This document shows, piece by piece, positions 1,210 to 9,222 of a stretch of DNA of 22,927 nucleotides. The stretch is taken from IMG/VR virus record IMGVR_UViG_3300049181_000050, positions 1-22,927 of that record; one strand, 5' to 3'. The position numbers and the translations under genes were made by a program. The DNA is from a virus. Each line of letters starts with the position of its first letter. Within the stretch, counting starts at the first letter, position 1. The notes under the pieces were generated by a model. That model had not been told where the DNA came from and did not search any database. It saw only the letters and a list, made by a program, of their open reading frames with translations.

Positions 1210-4200
1210 CTATGCTGTCCCGCTGGCGGCGAAGCCGCGGCCCACGGTTGCGCTCATCTGATAGATTGCGAACTCAAGATCGCCCGCCGCCACCGGCCCG
1301 CCGACATCGGTGGTCTGCGCGGCTGATGTCCAAGTGTAGGTTTCGCTGGTCGCGGTCTTGGTGACGCTGTCCACGCCGTCACCCAGCACCAGCTCGTAAG
1401 CCTCGCTCGCCTCGCCCAAGGGCACTTCAAGCGACCCCCAGCCTGCGCCGATGCGGGTGCGGCGGTTCCACGCGAACACCCAATCGCCGTTCGACAGCAG
1501 GCTGGCAGTGACGTTGACGGGCGCATAAGGCTTCAGGCTCGCTCCGTTCAGCGCCACCGTTTCGATAAAGCCATCGCCGCGCCCGAACGTCACAGATTGG
1601 AAGCGCGAGGTGGTGCCCACATCGGCGATTTCATATTGCTGTGCCTCGGCCCCTGCGATCACCAGCACGCTTTCGCCTGCCGAGTGCCCGCTGACTGCGA
1701 ACTCGGTGCCGCGCCGCCCGCGCTTGAAGCCCGACAAGTTATAGCTGCCATCGCCCTGAAGCGTGGCTGTGGCGAATTGCACCAGCTCGCCGCCGACCAG
1801 AAGCAGGTTCAGGCGCGGGTCGGCGTCAATCGCATCCTCGGCCGCGCTGGAAAGCGTGCCGTAATTCATCGCCACGTTGAGCACATTGCCGCGATCCCAC
1901 ACGGTCGGTGCGGCATCGCCCAGCGCATTAGTGGTGCGCCCCCAACTGGCGGCAGCGGTCGCACCGAAGCTGGCGAAATCCTCGTCGAACTCGCCATCAC
2001 CGCCCGCGCTGCTGTCGCGGTAGATGATCGCCCCGCCCCATGCGCCCGAACCGAACGGCGCGGCAGCGGCATAGGCGACCGGCAAGCTACCGTCATCCGC
2101 ATCGCTGACCAGCGGGATGTCTGCCACGAAGCCCTTTGTCGGGATGGGAAAGGCGATCACGCTCGGCAGGTGGCCGTCAGCCCCAGCACCCGCCGCGTCG
2201 TCAAGTTCTGCCAGCGCGGGGGCGTCATAGACCCAGGAGGTCGAAATCGTGCCGTCAGCGCGGATCACCATGTTGGTCAGGCGCGCATCCCATTGCTCAC
2301 CATCCAGCATCAGGGCGCGGACATCGCCGGGGGTGAGGCCGAGTTGCTGGCGGGTCAGCACCAGATCGGCGGTGCGGCTGCTGTTCCAGATGCGCGCGAA
2401 GTGCCGGTCGGCCAGCGCGCGAGCATCATCGGGCGCGAGCGCCAGCGTGCCCATGTCAATCGTGCCCTCGCCGCGCGAACCGGTGGCATCAAGCGGGCGG
2501 TCGGAGCGCACATTGTTCGGCTGCTGCTCGGCTTCCAGATCGGCAAAGGCGATGGTCAGCGAGCGGGGCAGTTCCGTGCCCTGCCGCACCTTGACCGTGA
2601 AGCGGTCGCTGTCCGGCACAAACCACGGCGTTGCCAGAGTGCCGCCCGATACGCCCGTGCGGCGGATGCCATTCACGCTGAAGTCAACCGTGGCAATGTC
2701 GCTGTCATAGACATCCAGCAGCGGTTCGATCATCTGCGACGCCCCGCCGCGAACCGCCGACCAGCCCGCCACGATTTGGTTGAGCGCGTCGAAATCGTAT
2801 TCGGTTACGCCCACCTGTTCGGCCAGATCATCAAGGATGCTGCCGAGCGTCACGCCTTCGCCGCTGATGCGATCAAGGTAGCGCCACGCGATTTCTTTGG
2901 CCAACCCGGGCGCGGTGATGATGGCATTGTTCAGCGGGTCATAGATTGCCGCGTCGCTGTCTGAAATATCCCAATCGGTCAGGTCAACCGTCCGGATAGT
3001 CGAAAGGTCTGACAGGCTGATTTCGCGCGCGACATTTGCGCCGCCCAACCAGATTGAAGTGGCCCCCGGCTTCAGGCTGGCGAACTGCTGGCGCGTATTA
3101 AAAACGTCCATCGTGACACTGACGGTCTGCACAATTGAGCCATCTGCGGGGTCAATATGGTGGAGCTTGCCCCCCGAGCCAGTCGGAGACGCCAGCACAA
3201 AATAGCCCGTCGCCGGATCAACGCAGGCCGCCACCGGGTTCAACAGGCCAACGCTATCCGCCAAGCCGCTCACCGCAAAGAACGGGGGGTAAGGCGAGGC
3301 GATGGTGACAAGACGGTAGAAATAGACGGTGTCGGTCGCAACCCCACCGCCTGCCGACCAGATATTGCCATCCAGATCAACGAAGTGAAATTCGGGTGCC
3401 CAATCAAACCCGGTCAGCGCGTTCATGTCGGCAGCAGTGCCGTCAATATAGAAGGGGCGAAGAAACGAGTGGGGGATGGTGGCCCAATGCTCCACGCCGT
3501 TGCCATCCGCTAGGACTTGAACCCATTCCTGCTGATCGCCGTCCAGATCGGCGAATGCCTCACCTCCGCTGCCATCGGCACCGACCACATAAATGATGTC
3601 CCTGGTGTCGCTGATAACCAGCATCCGGCCATCGCTGAAAACGCCAAAGCTGGGCTGGATTGAGGGCGTGAAGGGGAAGGTTCCGAAGCTGATCCGGGTG
3701 CGCGACGGGACATCCCAAACCTCGTAGTCCTGAACACCCCACACCAGTCGCGTGAAATCCGGCGAGAAGCTGAAGCCGAAAAGGCTGTTCGGCTGATCGG
3801 CGATGGTGACGAATTCTTCGTAAGGCAGAATTGCCGTGCTGCCGCTCGCCACCTCAATGCTCATTTGCGGAATGCGGTTGCCAAATTTCTCCAGCGGGAT
3901 GTCCTTGAACATCACGTAGGCGGTGCCGCGATAGGCGGGGCACGATCCGACGCCCGATTGCGATTCGACCGTCGCCTTCATGCGCGGGTCTGCGTCCTGC
4001 GTCTCGCTGCCGGGATACACCGTGATGATGTCATTACCTGCCGTGCCCGGACGGGCATCGCCAAAGCCGAACGGCATCAGCGGCCCCGCGCCGGTGGCGT
4101 CATAGATCAGGTGCGTGTCGGCCCAGATGCGCGTCACCGCGTCAATCTCATGCCCCGCAACCGCAACCGCCCATGTGCCAAAATAGGTGTAATCGTTGAA

Positions 4201-4437
4201 CTTGCCGCCCTTCGTCTTGCGGCGGCGGCGCACTTCGGTCAGCTCCTCGGCCCAGAAGATGTTGCCCTGAATGCGCCGCGTGCCCCACACCAGCGGCAAG
4301 GGCGCGTTGTAATCGCCTTGGGTGAACTTCAGGTCATCGAGGCGCTGGCCTTCGATTTTGCGCGACATGGTGACAGCCATCTGCGCGGCCTGCATGGCAA
4401 CGGCGATGGCGGCTTTGGCGACGAGGTTAAGAGGCAT
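1210..4437 (-). CDS. GTA gp15-like / host-specificity tail tip protein with a beta-propeller-like insert
   Basis: This 1075-residue protein is probably the large baseplate or tail tip component, equivalent in position to lambda J or GTA gp15. I chose the ATG at 4437 because it overlaps the upstream stop as TGATG and has GGAG 6 nt before it; ATG 4449 and TTG 4453-4455 are in-frame alternatives with weaker context. The N-terminus has an Ala-rich helix followed by LPLVWGTRRIQGNIFWAEEL and GTWAVAVAGHEIDAVTRIWAD, which is the usual opening of this tail family. Residues about 210-512 look like a beta-propeller inserted into the tail fold. The tail part resumes with ISGEGVTLGSILDDLAEQVG. The C-terminal part carries LSGFKRGRRGTE followed by SGHSAGESVLVI, a signature I associate with GTA and phage baseplate proteins, and then a fibronectin-III-like segment. 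It follows the hydrolase gene and precedes the fibre, as in GTA-like clusters. Confidence 0.85.
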   Translation of the reverse strand: MPLNLVAKAAIAVAMQAAQMAVTMSRKIEGQRLDDLKFTQGDYNAPLPLVWGTRRIQGNIFWAEELTEVRRRRKTKGGKFNDYTYFGTWAVAVAGHEIDAVTRIWADTHLIYDATGAGPLMPFGFGDARPGTAGNDIITVYPGSETQDADPRMKATVESQSGVGSCPAYRGTAYVMFKDIPLEKFGNRIPQMSIEVASGSTAILPYEEFVTIADQPNSLFGFSFSPDFTRLVWGVQDYEVWDVPSRTRISFGTFPFTPSIQPSFGVFSDGRMLVISDTRDIIYVVGADGSGGEAFADLDGDQQEWVQVLADGNGVEHWATIPHSFLRPFYIDGTAADMNALTGFDWAPEFHFVDLDGNIWSAGGGVATDTVYFYRLVTIASPYPPFFAVSGLADSVGLLNPVAACVDPATGYFVLASPTGSGGKLHHIDPADGSIVQTVSVTMDVFNTRQQFASLKPGATSIWLGGANVAREISLSDLSTIRTVDLTDWDISDSDAAIYDPLNNAIITAPGLAKEIAWRYLDRISGEGVTLGSILDDLAEQVGVTEYDFDALNQIVAGWSAVRGGASQMIEPLLDVYDSDIATVDFSVNGIRRTGVSGGTLATPWFVPDSDRFTVKVRQGTELPRSLTIAFADLEAEQQPNNVRSDRPLDATGSRGEGTIDMGTLALAPDDARALADRHFARIWNSSRTADLVLTRQQLGLTPGDVRALMLDGEQWDARLTNMVIRADGTISTSWVYDAPALAELDDAAGAGADGHLPSVIAFPIPTKGFVADIPLVSDADDGSLPVAYAAAAPFGSGAWGGAIIYRDSSAGGDGEFDEDFASFGATAAASWGRTTNALGDAAPTVWDRGNVLNVAMNYGTLSSAAEDAIDADPRLNLLLVGGELVQFATATLQGDGSYNLSGFKRGRRGTEFAVSGHSAGESVLVIAGAEAQQYEIADVGTTSRFQSVTFGRGDGFIETVALNGASLKPYAPVNVTASLLSNGDWVFAWNRRTRIGAGWGSLEVPLGEASEAYELVLGDGVDSVTKTATSETYTWTSAAQTTDVGGPVAAGDLEFAIYQMSATVGRGFAASGTA

Positions 4438-4856
4438 CAGTCTCTCCATCGCCAAATGGAATGGATGCGGTGCGGCAGGATCGTCACCGGGCGCACGCGC
4501 ATCGCGCCAACCGGCAAGGCTTCGATGGCGCGGTGCGGGTCGCCTGCAAGCGGCGCAGCGATGGCCAGATGCACCGGCTTGCCGTTCAGGTTGACCAACA
4601 GGATGTCGCCCGCCTCGCGTTCGCGCACGCGGTCAAACAGGCGCGCAAGGCCGGAGATCAGTTGCGGCCCGAACCCGCTTTCGGGATAGTCGCTCACCAG
4701 AGCCTCGAAGCTTACCGCCTCGGCACGCCCAGCATCTCGCGCCACGCCCGCCACAAGCCCCTTGCAATCACAGCCGACGCCTTTGACGCTCGCCTGCCAG
4801 TGAAACGGCGTGTCGATCCACGCTTCGGCGGTGGAGGCAATCTGCGCGCCGGTCAT
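4437..4856 (-). CDS. NlpC/P60-family cell wall hydrolase (GTA gp14-like)
   Basis: This 139-residue protein has the order of an NlpC/P60 cysteine peptidase. TPFHWQASVKGVGCDCKGLV places the catalytic Cys at residue 31 (the second Cys of GCDC), and GKPVHLAIA supplies a His near residue 96. Phage members of this family sit in the tail tip and cut peptidoglycan peptide cross-links during DNA entry. The ATG overlaps the DUF2163 stop as ATGA (4853-4856), and its own stop overlaps the next start as TGATG, so it lies inside a tightly coupled tail tip operon: DUF2460, DUF2163, NlpC, gp15-like. The same order is known from the Rhodobacter capsulatus GTA. In the common NlpC pattern a Ser follows the catalytic Cys; here it is Lys (DCKGL). 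I do not take this as inactivating. Confidence 0.88.
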   Translation of the reverse strand: MTGAQIASTAEAWIDTPFHWQASVKGVGCDCKGLVAGVARDAGRAEAVSFEALVSDYPESGFGPQLISGLARLFDRVREREAGDILLVNLNGKPVHLAIAAPLAGDPHRAIEALPVGAMRVRPVTILPHRIHSIWRWRD

Positions 4857-5749
4857 GCGGTCGGGTTTGGATAGCGCAGCGCCTGATCGCTGCCGGGAAC
4901 GTCAGGGAAGCCGCGAAAGTTGGCGATGTTGGCGAAGGTCATGCACGCGGCGCGCGTCTTGCTGGTGCGAGTAGCGGGATCAAAACAGCCCTGCCGCAGG
5001 GTCAGCGTGGCGCCGACTTCGGGCAGCTCGGCCAGCGGCATGAACAGGACAATGACGCCGGCAGCGGAGAAGCTGCGGATCTCGACCGGCCGCGTCCCGG
5101 CCAGCGCCCCAGAGGTGAAGGCGGCCGTGCCGCGGTTGAAGAAATCGTCCACGAAGCTGCTGATGAAGCTGACGGTGAAGCTGCGTTCATCGGTCACGCT
5201 GGTGACGGTCGCGACCTCTGTGACAGGGGTGGCACCGCAGCGCGCATCGCCAAAATCGGCATCGCAGTAGGCCGTAATGATCCGGCCGACCTCTTGCTCG
5301 AACCGGCTGATGTCTGATCGGATGGTCAACTTGAACCGGCCGCCCGCCACTTCGCCGCGCGCGACAAAGCCCTGCATCAGCCGGATCGGGCCGCTGGCAA
5401 GGCTTGCCCAGTCGACCATGAATATACGGGCGCGCGCACCATCGAAACGCCCGCCGATCACGGCGGCGCGGGTGACGTGCCAGGGCTGGGTGGCGGCATC
5501 CACCACCGGACCACTGATCTCGATCTCGTCAGCCTCGAAGCCGGTCGACAGCGACAGGTCGGACGGCAGAATTCCGGTGTCGGGATAGAAGGTCGCCGCT
5601 CCGTCGCCGAGATCCACGCTGAGCGCGCGATCGTGATCGGTGAAGGCGAGGGTGGTGCCGTCGGCCAGATCGAGGCGCAGCATCGCCGCAAGCGTCAGCG
5701 TGCGCTTGCCGAGCGCCGTCACCATGCCGGCGGAAAGCGTGCGGCTCAC
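4853..5749 (-). CDS. DUF2163 tail hub protein (GTA gp13-like, lambda gpL-like role)
   Basis: The 298-residue product fits DUF2163 (phage_BR0599 family), including the N-terminal LRLDLADGTTLAFTDHDR and a C-terminal motif ACMTFANIANFRGFPDVPG. These proteins form the hub between tail tube and baseplate. Four Cys occur at residues 162, 171, 255 and 269, in AYCDADFGDARCG, RQGCFD and ACMTF. The arrangement recalls lambda gpL, whose C-terminal domain binds an iron-sulfur cluster, so a metal site is plausible here. The start is GTG (complement of 5747-5749) and overlaps the upstream stop as GTGA, which suggests coupled translation. Ribosome-binding sequence is weak. The stop overlaps the NlpC/P60 start. 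Family assignment is strong; the metal site is inference. Confidence 0.88.
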   Translation of the reverse strand: MSRTLSAGMVTALGKRTLTLAAMLRLDLADGTTLAFTDHDRALSVDLGDGAATFYPDTGILPSDLSLSTGFEADEIEISGPVVDAATQPWHVTRAAVIGGRFDGARARIFMVDWASLASGPIRLMQGFVARGEVAGGRFKLTIRSDISRFEQEVGRIITAYCDADFGDARCGATPVTEVATVTSVTDERSFTVSFISSFVDDFFNRGTAAFTSGALAGTRPVEIRSFSAAGVIVLFMPLAELPEVGATLTLRQGCFDPATRTSKTRAACMTFANIANFRGFPDVPGSDQALRYPNPTA

Positions 5750-6105
5750 GCCCGCACCTCTTTCAGGCGCAGCGAGACGATCTGGTCGAGATGCGTGGCC
5801 GGCGCTTCGATATCGAGCGGGCTGTCGAACCTCACGTCGACGAAGCTGCCGTCGGTCCAGTCCTTGAACCTGAAGGAATACAGCCCGCCCAGCGATTGCG
5901 CGAACAGGTCGATCACCGCTTGATGATCCGCCCCGTCGCGCAGGCTGATCGGATAGCTGACCTCGAACACGCGCAGCGGGGTCGACCAGCGGGCGTTGCG
6001 AACCTCGAAGCCGCCGTCGGTGGTGACCACCTCGGTCGAATAGTCGAGCGTCCGGCGCGCGCCCAGTTCGACGCCTTCGGGCAGGGTGAGAGCGAGATCG
6101 GCCAT
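5746..6105 (-). CDS. DUF2460-like distal tail protein, short form
   Basis: This 119-residue protein carries the core of DUF2460 (TIGR02217, GTA gp12): GGFEVRNARWSTPLRVFEV, then a helix with a GLYSFRFKDWTDGSF strand. DUF2460 proteins are distal tail proteins that cap the tube beyond the tape measure. Known members are generally around 200 residues, and here the half after the DW motif is largely missing, so this is a compact version closer in size to lambda gpM. The ATG at 6105 has AGGT 7-8 nt upstream and follows the tape measure stop by 4 nt. The stop overlaps the DUF2163 GTG as GTGA. I see no frameshifted remainder of the missing half, so I read it as intact rather than broken. Confidence 0.75.
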   Translation of the reverse strand: MADLALTLPEGVELGARRTLDYSTEVVTTDGGFEVRNARWSTPLRVFEVSYPISLRDGADHQAVIDLFAQSLGGLYSFRFKDWTDGSFVDVRFDSPLDIEAPATHLDQIVSLRLKEVRA

Positions 6106-6109
6106 TGTC

Positions 6110-8095
6110 TTACCTCGCGTTCAGCACATGACGCAGGCGGGTCGCCGCTTGTCCGGCAGCCTCGCGCCCGACCCGCTCGTTGGGCGCGCTGATGTTGATG
6201 GTGATTGGGCCACCGCCGCCGCCCATCATCCGCTGGGTGTTGGAATTGTCGAACACCCGCTCGCCGCCGCGGAAGTTGACCAGCTCCGGCCCGCGCTCGC
6301 CCACCATCGCAAGGCCGCGCGGCGCCGACAGCGTGCCGGTGGCAAAGCCCGGGATGCCAAGCGAAGTGCCCAGCGCTTTCCAAGCCATGTTGAACGCCAT
6401 GTCCGCCAGCTGGGCGAGGAGGTTGGACAGGGCATCGCCCAGTGACTGGGCACCCTGAAGGACGCCAGACAGCTGGAAGCCGAGTTCGTTGAACGCCGCG
6501 CCGCCCGCCAGCTTGAGCTCGGCGAACTTGTCGACTCCGCCTTGCAGCGCCTTGCCGAGTTCAATGCCGAGGTTGCGGGCGTGTTCGGCCACGCGCTCGA
6601 CCACGTCCGCCGCTTCGTTGCCTTGCGTCAGCCAGTCGCTGACGGTGGCATCCCCCAGCCCTTGCGTGCCGAGCCGGAACTGTGCTTCGCTTTCAAGCTC
6701 GGGCGAGATGATGCCCTGGTCGCGCGCCGACTGGAGCAACCCGCGCTCGCCCTGCAACTGCCGCAGCTTGGCAATCTGCGGGAACAGCCGGTCGAGCAGC
6801 GATTGCACATCGCTCGCCATGTCGCGGAACGCTTGCTTCGTGTCGGCAGTCGCCTTGCGCGCCGGATCCACCATCAGGGCATCGAGCCGGGCCATTTCGG
6901 CAGCAATGCCATCCACCATGTCGGGAACGTATGAGTTGCCGACCACGGCGTCGTACATGTCGAAGAAGAAGCCGGTAACGGCCTTGATCTTCCTGCCGAG
7001 GCGCTCAAATACCGCACCCAGCTTGTCGATTAGCCACGTTTTCACGCCCTGATAAACCCGCTGCACAATCTCGGTGATCTTGTCCCAGTTCTTCCACGCC
7101 AGATAGATCGCGCCCAGCACCAGGGCAAAGCCGAGGATGACGGGGTTGGTCATCAGCGCCAGCGCGGCCACGCGGATGATGGTGAAAGCGCTGGCAATGG
7201 CGGGGGCAATCGTGACCAGCGAACCGAGCGCGATCAGCACTGGGCCGAGAGCGGCGGCAACGCCAGCGAACACAAGGATGCCTTCCTGCACGGGCGCGGG
7301 CAGGCTGGTGAAAGCGGTGGCGAGCGACACGATCGCCGCCGTGATCGGCGGGATCAGCGGAAGAATGGCTTCGCCGATCTTGTCCATCGCCTGTCCGATC
7401 GCGACTTCAGCCTGTCGCCAGGGCGAGGCATCAGCCGCAGCCGCACCGGCCCCTTTGAACTGGCGCTCGACCTCGGCGAGGATCACGCCCTGCGCGCCGG
7501 CGGTATCGCCCACCGCCTGCATCGCGGCGATCTGCGCCTTCTGCTGTTCGGTGAATTGCACGCCGACGCGGGTGAGGGCGGTGATGCCCTTGACCGGATC
7601 GTTCAGCGCCTTGCCCAGCATGATCGCGGCGGCCTGCGGCTCCCCGCCAAGGCGCGTCGCCATATCGATCGCCGCTTGCTGGGCGCGGTCGAATTCCTTC
7701 CCGGCGACGTTGCCGAAGGTCAGCAGCTGCGCGGTCACCTGCTTGAGGATGACCTCGGCATCGAACAGGCTGGTCATTTCCAGCTTGTCGGCCATCGCCG
7801 CCAGCTCGCCGGCCGTCTTGCCGCTGACATTGCCCATCGAGGCGAGCGCAGCGGAGACATCCGCCATCGCCTTTTCCTGCTCGATGAAACCCTTGACCGA
7901 AGCCGCACCCAGCGCGGCGAAGGGCGCAGTGATCCCGACGCTCAGCTTTGCGCCGAAATTCTGGATATCGCCCCCGAGCCGCTCGAAGCGCTTCACGCTC
8001 TTGCGCAACTCGCGTTCGGATTGTGTCAGGCCTGACTTGAACTCGCCGGAATCCAGCCCGAGCCGGATCAGAAGACTGCCGATCTTCGTCGCCAT
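6110..8095 (-). CDS. Tail tape measure protein
   Basis: This 661-residue protein follows the tail chaperone gene, the standard place for a tape measure. The N-terminus MATKIGSLLIRLGLDSGEFK and the following coiled-coil-like stretch RELRKSVKRFERLGGDIQNF are typical of the family. Residues about 70-215 are alpha-helical and Ala-rich. Residues about 248-335 hold several hydrophobic segments of membrane-segment length, as expected for a protein that may enter the membrane during DNA ejection. The C-terminus has FATGTLSAPRGLAMVGERGPELV and a Gly-rich turn, common to this class. By the general rule of about 0.15 nm of tail per residue the tail would be near 100 nm (inference). GGAGAGG lies 9 nt before the ATG. 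No peptidase or lysozyme insert is visible. Confidence 0.92.
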   Translation of the reverse strand: MATKIGSLLIRLGLDSGEFKSGLTQSERELRKSVKRFERLGGDIQNFGAKLSVGITAPFAALGAASVKGFIEQEKAMADVSAALASMGNVSGKTAGELAAMADKLEMTSLFDAEVILKQVTAQLLTFGNVAGKEFDRAQQAAIDMATRLGGEPQAAAIMLGKALNDPVKGITALTRVGVQFTEQQKAQIAAMQAVGDTAGAQGVILAEVERQFKGAGAAAADASPWRQAEVAIGQAMDKIGEAILPLIPPITAAIVSLATAFTSLPAPVQEGILVFAGVAAALGPVLIALGSLVTIAPAIASAFTIIRVAALALMTNPVILGFALVLGAIYLAWKNWDKITEIVQRVYQGVKTWLIDKLGAVFERLGRKIKAVTGFFFDMYDAVVGNSYVPDMVDGIAAEMARLDALMVDPARKATADTKQAFRDMASDVQSLLDRLFPQIAKLRQLQGERGLLQSARDQGIISPELESEAQFRLGTQGLGDATVSDWLTQGNEAADVVERVAEHARNLGIELGKALQGGVDKFAELKLAGGAAFNELGFQLSGVLQGAQSLGDALSNLLAQLADMAFNMAWKALGTSLGIPGFATGTLSAPRGLAMVGERGPELVNFRGGERVFDNSNTQRMMGGGGGPITINISAPNERVGREAAGQAATRLRHVLNAR

Positions 8096-8099
8096 TGCC

Positions 8100-8459
8100 T
8101 CAAGCCTCTCCGTAAGTGGTGGTCACGAGGCCGCGCGCGGCCATCGCATCGAGCCGCGCCCAGACTTCTTCGCGGGTGAGCGGGCGGGCATCGAACCCGG
8201 CGCGGAACTTGGCGAATGTTCTGATCTCCGGCTTGCGGAAATCGCTCGTCGCCAGGCGCGCCGAATAATAGGCTGTCAGCAGCGCCAGATCCCGCGCAGC
8301 CTTGGCCTCAGCTTCAAGCCGACGCTTCTGCGCCTGAATGATCGGGACAAAGGTTTCGACGCTCTCATCCCAGAACTGCGCGGGCGGCAGGCCGGCCTCG
8401 ACCCACCGCCCGAGCAGCGTCAGGGTGTCGGCTTCTTCGCCTCCTTCGGCGGCGGCGCG
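8100..8459 (-). CDS. -1 frameshift extension of the tail assembly chaperone (lambda GT-type)
   Basis: This reading frame encodes 119 codons (RAAAEGGEEADTLTLLGRW onward, ending YGEA) and stops 4 nt before the tape measure ATG. It has no ATG, GTG or TTG between the previous in-frame stop (complement of 8484-8486) and the middle of a conserved-looking helical region, so it cannot start in the usual way. It does look coding: charged amphipathic helices (VPIIQAQKRRLEAEAKAARD), an AYYSARLATSDFRKPEI stretch and GC-rich third positions. It is reached from the upstream gene by a -1 shift at GGGAAAC (8465-8459), giving a fusion of about 230 residues. In lambda and many siphophages the G and GT proteins are made this way from the gene before the tape measure. 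A less likely alternative is re-initiation at CTG 8423, which overlaps the frame-0 stop as CTGA. Confidence 0.82.
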   Translation of the reverse strand, partial: RAAAEGGEEADTLTLLGRWVEAGLPPAQFWDESVETFVPIIQAQKRRLEAEAKAARDLALLTAYYSARLATSDFRKPEIRTFAKFRAGFDARPLTREEVWARLDAMAARGLVTTTYGEA

Positions 8460-8791
8460 TTTCCCGCGTCGCCGGGTGCCGGTTCAGCCGAGGCCGCAGA
8501 TGCGCCGAAATAGGCCGAGATGCCTTCGGTGATCACAGCCATCACAGCTGCGAGGCCAGCATCGTCTATCAGATCGTCCGACTTTTCGCGCGTGACGCGG
8601 TGGCCGGGCTGGAGCGCCGCCCAGAAAACCGCGCTGATCGCGTCGAAGCCGACCTTTTGGCCCCCGCTGCCGAACACGGCCGCGATGCTTTCGCCCAGCT
8701 CCTTCTCGGCAAGCCGGAGCGTGCCGAACTTGAAGACGAGGCGGTAGGTGTTACCGCCGATCTCGATCACCTTGTGCGAGGCTCCGTTCAC
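8420..8791 (-). CDS. Tail assembly chaperone, frame-0 product (lambda G-type / GTA gp10-like)
   Basis: The 123-residue product starts at GTG 8791, which overlaps the tail tube stop as GTGA. The longer upstream extension of this frame is Arg-rich shadow translation of the tail tube gene and is rejected. The sequence VIEIGGNTYRLVFKFGTLRLAEKELG, then FDAISAVFWAALQPGHRV, fits the GTA gp10-like family (also called GTA TAM or gene transfer agent family protein), small helical proteins between tail tube and tape measure. These coat the tape measure during tail assembly and are absent from virions. The C-terminus is a Pro, Ala and Lys-rich tail, downstream of the frameshift site at residues 110-111. 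Most ribosomes should make this short form and a minority the extended form. Confidence 0.85.
   Translation of the reverse strand: MNGASHKVIEIGGNTYRLVFKFGTLRLAEKELGESIAAVFGSGGQKVGFDAISAVFWAALQPGHRVTREKSDDLIDDAGLAAVMAVITEGISAYFGASAASAEPAPGDAGNAPPPKEAKKPTP
8459..8465 (-). promoter_or_regulatory. Programmed -1 frameshift slippery heptamer GGGAAAC
   Basis: Read on the minus strand in the chaperone frame the site is G GGA AAC, a perfect X XXY YYZ heptamer of the class used in lambda G/GT (GGGAAAG). After slippage the tRNAs re-pair on GGG and AAA and translation continues with CGC at 8459. An AAGGAGG sequence lies about 12 nt downstream and GC-rich sequence surrounds the site; I have not modelled a stimulatory structure. 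Confidence 0.85.
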
Positions 8792-9222
8792 GAGGCGGGC
8801 CCTTCGGTCACCGCACGGGTAATGCGGATCATCAGGGTGGCGGTCATTGGCGCGTTCGGCTCGATCTGGTTGACCTTGTAGCTGCGCACGAAGCCGGTGC
8901 CCGAATCCTGCCGCAGCGGCGAGCCGTCGGTGTCGGGATAGACGATCTTCCACGCGCGGACATCGCCCGCCGCCTTGGCAGCGCGGCACAGCTGGTCGGT
9001 GGTCGAGTTGGGGACGTGCATGATTTCCACGGTCAGCTCACCGCCGTCGATCATGCCGACGATGTATTCCTTGCGGCGGTTGGGCGAGGCGAGGCTGGTG
9101 ACCTCGTGCTCGTCCGCCACGTCTTCGGGCGGGGTCACGCTGCCGACGCGCTCCAGCTCGAACAGGGTGCTGCCATTGTGAAGGTGGAACTGGCCGCCCC
9201 ACCCGATTGCTTCACCTGCCAT
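8788..9222 (-). CDS. Major tail tube protein
   Basis: This 144-residue protein sits between the tail terminator and the tail chaperone, the position of the tail tube subunit in siphophages. It has the mixed beta features of the family: an N-terminal GWGGQFHLHNGSTLFELERV, a loop with PPEDVADEHEVTSLASPNRRKEYI in which the tube protein usually turns between strands, then GGELTVEIMHVP and the C-terminal strand MTATLMIRITR. Such proteins stack as hexamer rings around the tape measure. The ATG at 9222 is preceded by AAAGGAA at good spacing. No C-terminal Ig-like domain is present, so this is a minimal tube protein. It ends in a GTGA overlap with the chaperone gene. Confidence 0.88.
   Translation of the reverse strand: MAGEAIGWGGQFHLHNGSTLFELERVGSVTPPEDVADEHEVTSLASPNRRKEYIVGMIDGGELTVEIMHVPNSTTDQLCRAAKAAGDVRAWKIVYPDTDGSPLRQDSGTGFVRSYKVNQIEPNAPMTATLMIRITRAVTEGPAS

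Follow-up and report, generated by a model that had tools for sequence, protein, structure and literature searches.

How is the reading frame between the tail chaperone and tape measure genes of this virus expressed, when it has no usable start codon of its own? The window, that is, the whole stretch of 22,927 nucleotides that was analysed, comprises positions 1-22,927 of the metagenomic virus record IMGVR_UViG_3300049181_000050 in IMG/VR, and the genes considered here lie on its minus strand, where the tail tube gene is followed by the chaperone, its extension and then the tape measure gene. The relevant features, several of which resemble genes of gene transfer agents (GTA), are:

8788-9222, minus strand: lambda gpV-like tail tube protein (PF16461), whose gene immediately precedes the chaperone
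8420-8791, minus strand: gpG-like tail assembly chaperone in the zero frame (related to PF11836 Phage_TAC_11 / phrog_2115)
8484-8486, minus strand: last upstream TGA stop in the -1 frame, read from the sequence
8459-8465, minus strand: slippery heptamer G GGA AAC, with register and type of site conserved among homologues
8100-8459, minus strand: -1-frame extension, 119 codons plus TGA, putative gpT-like domain of the Phage_TAC_6 / GTA g10.1 family, phrog_19318
6110-8095, minus strand: tape measure protein (PF06791), starting 4 nt past the extension stop
4437-6105, minus strand: GTA g12-g14-like tail genes (DUF2460; Gp84_N/BR0599 hub; NlpC-like)
1210-4455, minus strand: GTA g15-like hub protein with Phage-tail_3 and Rcc01698_C

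The zero-frame chaperone ORF (ORF1) runs for 123 codons from GTG at 8791, which overlaps the stop codon of the tail tube gene (GTGA), to TGA at 8422-8420. A preliminary description had proposed that a canonical -1 programmed frameshift at GGGAAAC joins this ORF to the next, and both its coordinates for the heptamer (8465-8459) and the X XXY YYZ register were reproduced exactly; this is the single occurrence of GGGAAAC on the minus strand, and there is none on the plus strand of the window. The -1 frame is closed upstream, as described, by TGA at 8486-8484, and this stop and the zero-frame stop at 8422-8420 bound the zone in which a shift is possible. From the slip, the -1 frame is open to TGA at 8102-8100, which was correctly placed 4 nt before the tape measure ATG at 8095. 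The claim that the 119-codon extension lacks a usable ATG, GTG or TTG also stood: the earliest ATG, at 8144, lies 15 codons before the end and is followed by a GTG at 8126. CTG codons are present in the -1 frame at 8423, 8417 and 8390, one of which overlaps the zero-frame stop (CTGA), and AAGGAGG is found at 8446-8440, 16 nt upstream of the overlapping CTG. What the analysis shows is the layout and its conservation, the absent start codon, the families and the predicted folds.

We consider it very likely that the phage makes two tail chaperone forms from one gene by a -1 ribosomal slip of the lambda G/GT kind. Most ribosomes would stop at 8420 and yield a 123-aa G-like chaperone, while on G_GGA_AAC (8465-8459) a minority would move back one base and produce a fusion of 230 aa (111 + 119, junction DAGN-RAAAEGG) with a T domain like Phage_TAC_6. 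If the parts work as they do in lambda, the tape measure protein would be coated by the G part, and the T domain of the rare fusion would bring in the tail tube protein, whose gene lies immediately upstream. That the shift occurs, at what rate, and how the two forms would divide the labour, we infer from lambda.

Taken alone, the heptamer in the window is weak evidence: when synonymous codons were drawn from the window's own genes, 37% of trials placed an in-register XXXYYYZ by chance somewhere in the overlap of 22 codons. The slip site uses GGA, a rare codon that makes up 4.6% of the glycine codons in the window. Downstream of the site, RNA structure did not exceed what composition gives in comparison with shuffled sequences (z -0.15 to -0.98), and no Shine-Dalgarno-like stimulator was seen upstream. 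In Escherichia coli, AAC in the A site generally promotes -1 shifting less well than AAG does. Given AAGGAGG at 8446-8440 and the CTG that overlaps the stop, a degree of independent initiation is conceivable. With the heptamer by itself weak, the case for frameshifting rests on homologues.

Direct tblastn searches of GenBank phages with the extension and with ORF1 gave no match, and single-protein scans of viral contigs gave no relatives; relatives were reached via the tail tube protein and then by alignment-based scans of viral contigs. The resulting set comprises 58 distinct loci including the window, mostly from phages, together with one locus from a Roseovarius genome (L026), on which the genome sampling of relatives was centred, and one genome from the class sample (L120). 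A conserved GLxPxxFW domain lies in the -1 frame at all 58 loci. An in-register heptamer is present at 46 of them; the wrong registers give 8 and 1, and synonymous resampling gave a mean of 13 and a maximum of 21 in 300 trials; thus, heptamers are enriched 3.5-fold and in the correct register only. The locus rows are related, so these counts overstate the evidence somewhat, and a protein tree was used as a guard against this. On this tree, the slippery type (GGGAAAN, AAACCCT, AAAAAAR or CCCTTTR) changes at least 15 times and the frame never changes, a pattern that selection on frameshifting predicts and that would not fit selection on one peptide or DNA word. In total, these observations support the -1 frameshift and the lambda-like arrangement put forward in the preliminary description; of the two points that it proposed to test on an alignment of homologues, the -1 ORF is conserved, and the heptamer varies in type.

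That description had also named two findings that would speak against a frameshift, an independent start for the second ORF and loss of the heptamer from loci that keep the ORF, and the frameshift reading withstood both checks. An ATG, GTG or TTG within 25 nt of the junction is present at only 7 of the 58 phage-type loci. XXXYYYZ is absent from 12 loci, 11 of which (L002, L017, L020, L024, L029, L036, L040, L050, L057, L063 and L065) keep a proline slip NNC_CCY, mostly CGC_CCT or CGC_CCC, at the same place; the exception is L037, which has GGG_GAG. Most of the NNC_CCY loci, including that of phage Rivra, share a clade with AAACCCT relatives, and that clade has probably retained the proline slip C_CCY of an original A_AAC_CCT while losing its AAA half. 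These sites look like candidate single-tRNA proline slip sites. Non-canonical frameshift sites in tail chaperone genes are already recognised by PRFect (PMC10274946).

Four relatives are annotated GenBank phages, namely Rivra, Psul1, Pben1 and Shpa (L002-L005), each of which has both pieces with the extension in the -1 frame. The in-register site is GGGAAAG in Psul1 and Pben1 and AAAAAAG in Shpa, and a canonical heptamer is absent from Rivra. The T domain is annotated as a separate hypothetical ORF in all four, and in three of them the annotated start lies 30-63 nt into the conserved domain; that gene callers lose or mis-start the second ORF was therefore rightly anticipated. For the window itself, the outcome is a solid but ordinary correction of the annotation, as the T domain is dropped or shortened by standard gene callers.

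The stretch that corresponds to 8420-8459 differs in charge between the two frames across 56 loci, with relatedness ignored: the zero-frame tail past the slip is basic (mean charge +2.3), and the -1 linker is acidic (-1.3 versus +0.3 expected with synonymous codons), as where one frame reads KAKA and the other EGEG.

The second ORF could alternatively be a separate gene that is translated by termination-reinitiation at the weak CTG at 8423, like g10.1 in the GTAs of Rhodobacteraceae. The CTGA overlap with AAGGAGG 16 nt upstream is compatible with this, the homologous g10.1 of many GTAs uses ATGA or GTGA overlaps, and the second ORF of phage Shpa is annotated from CTG. However, the spacing of AAGGAGG from the CTG is too long, the phage relatives are strictly in the -1 frame (58/58) whereas start-mode GTA genes drift in frame, and the 3.5-fold enrichment of heptamers in the right register alone is at odds with a separately started gene. 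Altogether, we regard a separate gene translated by reinitiation as unlikely.

Two further explanations dispense with a ribosomal slip, and we give both a very small probability. Since the sequence comes from a metagenomic virus record, one continuous gene might have been split by an indel that arose in sequencing or assembly, or by decay into a pseudogene; yet an identical -1 junction is found in 58 loci from different studies and in the four GenBank phages, and both ORFs retain conserved residues and confident folds. This recurrence among homologues refutes a sequencing error. Slippage of the RNA polymerase rather than of the ribosome would fit the longer A runs in a few relatives (AAAAAAA in L010), but mixed heptamers that lack a long homopolymer (GGGAAAC, AAACCCT, CCCTTTG) are found in the window and in most relatives, which makes this equally improbable. 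Ribosomal frameshifting is thus the reading that we retain.

The preliminary description stated that the extension belonged to no family that could be named; a name can now be given. The window's own extension had no Pfam match; 37 of 51 aligned extension relatives matched PF09550 (Phage_TAC_6) at E <= 0.1 (best 1.8e-6), a profile built from the extensions retrieved GTA g10.1 down to 3.5e-7, and by its relatives the extension belongs with PF09550, the family of GTA g10.1. It also matched phrog_19318 (E=5.4e-5), which PHROGs lists as of unknown function and which can now be named as the putative frameshift-encoded T domain of a tail chaperone. ORF1 matched phrog_2115 (E=2.5e-15) and PF11836 (E=8.9e-5, 22.9 bits, below the gathering cut-off of 27.8 for the window copy); PF11836 was matched by 41 of 51 ORF1 relatives at E <= 0.1, and ORF1 appears related to this family (Phage_TAC_11, GTA g10). 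For both ORFs, membership rests on relatives because the window copies are below cut-off (PF11836) or unmatched (PF09550).

Structures were predicted with AF2 from alignments that excluded rows from annotated GenBank regions. The ORF1 model (pLDDT 86) is confident to about residue 95 and the slip is at residue 111; accordingly placed by the model, the slip site falls just past the folded domain. The top solved structure that matched this model was 2OB9, the HK97 tail assembly chaperone (Z 5.4, 86 residues, rmsd 5.0), other matches included phage p2 ORF12, and the BFVD matches were named tail assembly chaperones. Support for an HK97-like tail chaperone fold is moderate because a Z in this range can reflect a common arrangement. 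The extension model is all-helical (pLDDT 84), and no fold is claimed for it because the fold search returned helical look-alikes alone (best Z 5.0). Sequence profile searches of solved structures gave no usable match; a match to AvrBs3 was treated as spurious, as no stretch passed on its own.

The lambda GGGAAAG -1 frameshift reportedly has counterparts conserved in dsDNA tailed phages (attributed to Xu, Hendrix and Duda, 2004). The window resembles lambda G/GT in the position of the site between the tail tube and tape measure genes, the -1 direction, the lambda-type heptamer, and the pairing of a short chaperone with a predicted rare extended form; it differs in that its proteins are of the PF11836 and PF09550 type. 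The lambda mechanism and shift heptamers have been reviewed (PMC5009743). Frameshifted tail chaperones have been reported for Caulobacter phages, with GGGAAAC proposed in Colossus and AAAAAAC in phiCbK (PMC3556154), and for phages of Rhodobacter capsulatus (PMC4882933, PMC8601537); these share with the window the kind of site and the class of the host bacteria, and are likened to it by site rather than by protein alignment. The frameshift locus itself thus belongs to a well-known kind of tail chaperone gene, and the new part, a two-mode pattern in GTAs, lies outside the window.

The window's g15-like hub protein has no GTA_TIM domain, and because of this we take the window to come from a phage whose tail module is GTA-like and not from a GTA of the R. 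capsulatus (RcGTA) type. Its DUF2460 (GTA g12-like) protein at 5746-6105 has 119 aa and covers profile positions 4-83 of 205; its C-terminal part seems to be missing or replaced.

The g10/g10.1 pair of RcGTA is homologous to the two pieces in the window and shares their gene order, but consists of separate genes with their own starts and a variable relative frame. In GTAs of Rhodobacteraceae, one cluster of which was verified by GTA_TIM, DUF2460 and gene order, an ATG, GTG or TTG is present within 25 nt of the g10 stop in 29 of 29 and a heptamer in 1 of 29, and the relative frame of g10 and g10.1 is -1, +1 or 0. Outside that family the loci divide, and some other alphaproteobacterial GTAs, which are chromosomal clusters with a GTA_TIM-type g15 and not phages, resemble the window in having the -1 frame and an in-register heptamer (GGGAAAG, AAACCCT, CCCTTTC or CCCTTTG). 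These sites are GGGAAAG in L180, AAACCCT in L182, CCCTTTCCCT in L183 and L188, and CCCTTTG in L184, and L185 also has a heptamer; in all six, g10.1 is in the -1 frame with no ATG or GTG before the conserved FPW of the domain.

Across GTAs, the two modes, a -1 frame and heptamer (often CCCTTTCCCT) without ATG or GTG versus an overlapping ATG or GTG without heptamer, are nearly exclusive (two-mode loci: L180, L182-L185, L188, L189 and L255-L280). Among 80 GTA loci, 59, including the R. capsulatus family, have the start only, 18 the heptamer only, 1 both and 2 neither (Fisher p 1e-14, with relatedness ignored). All 18 heptamer-only loci are in the -1 frame, and synonymous resampling expects a heptamer in 5.8 of them; the start-mode loci are in -1 (46), +1 (11) or 0 (2). 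Within one order, 21 of 30 loci have an overlapping start and no heptamer, and the other 9 have CCCTTTC and no start. At L239, a GTA of the class sample, a heptamer and a TTG are both found at the junction. In several heptamer GTAs, a TTG or ATG that overlaps the stop codon of g10 lies 3-5 codons into the domain, and a truncated separate g10.1 product may be made there; because the conserved FPW precedes this codon, we argue that the fusion would still be made.

On a tree of GTA proteins, which are short and divergent and have long branches, the start mode needs 5 changes, 3 of which are forced by well-supported branches, and heptamer rows branch beside each start clade. In GTAs, frameshifted and separately started forms of the tail chaperones seem to have replaced one another on more than one occasion, and we infer that the direction was from frameshift to start codon in parallel. 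The preliminary description had taken the lambda arrangement to be transferred to a GTA-like module; this is not the best reading, because the arrangement is found throughout these tail modules of the alphaproteobacterial type. Some true GTAs have it too, and it looks ancestral. On balance, we favour a history in which the ancestral tail module, common to these phages and alphaproteobacterial GTAs, frameshifted its second chaperone. Several GTA lineages would still do so, a tandem CCC_TTT_CCC serving as the slip site in some; in other lineages, among them the R. capsulatus family, an overlapping start would have taken the place of the slip site at least 3 times, turning a rare fusion into a separate protein, and a side branch of phages would have reduced its site to C_CCY. 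Frameshifting of GTA g10/g10.1 was not described in the literature searched, a sample with few subscription papers; because the literature was sampled only in part, this is not proof of novelty.

If GTAs have indeed switched, they provide a natural experiment on whether tail assembly needs a strict lambda-like G:GT ratio. The two-mode pattern is the part worth following and is testable in cultivated bacteria. In four GTA clusters (L232, L233, L234 and L254), g10 (PF11836) is present and the profiles used detected no g10.1 homologue nearby. At the GTA or GTA-like loci of two genomes (G140, L119/L240; G101, L134/L243), g10 and g10.1 share one reading frame, with a stop codon between them and an ATG just after that stop.
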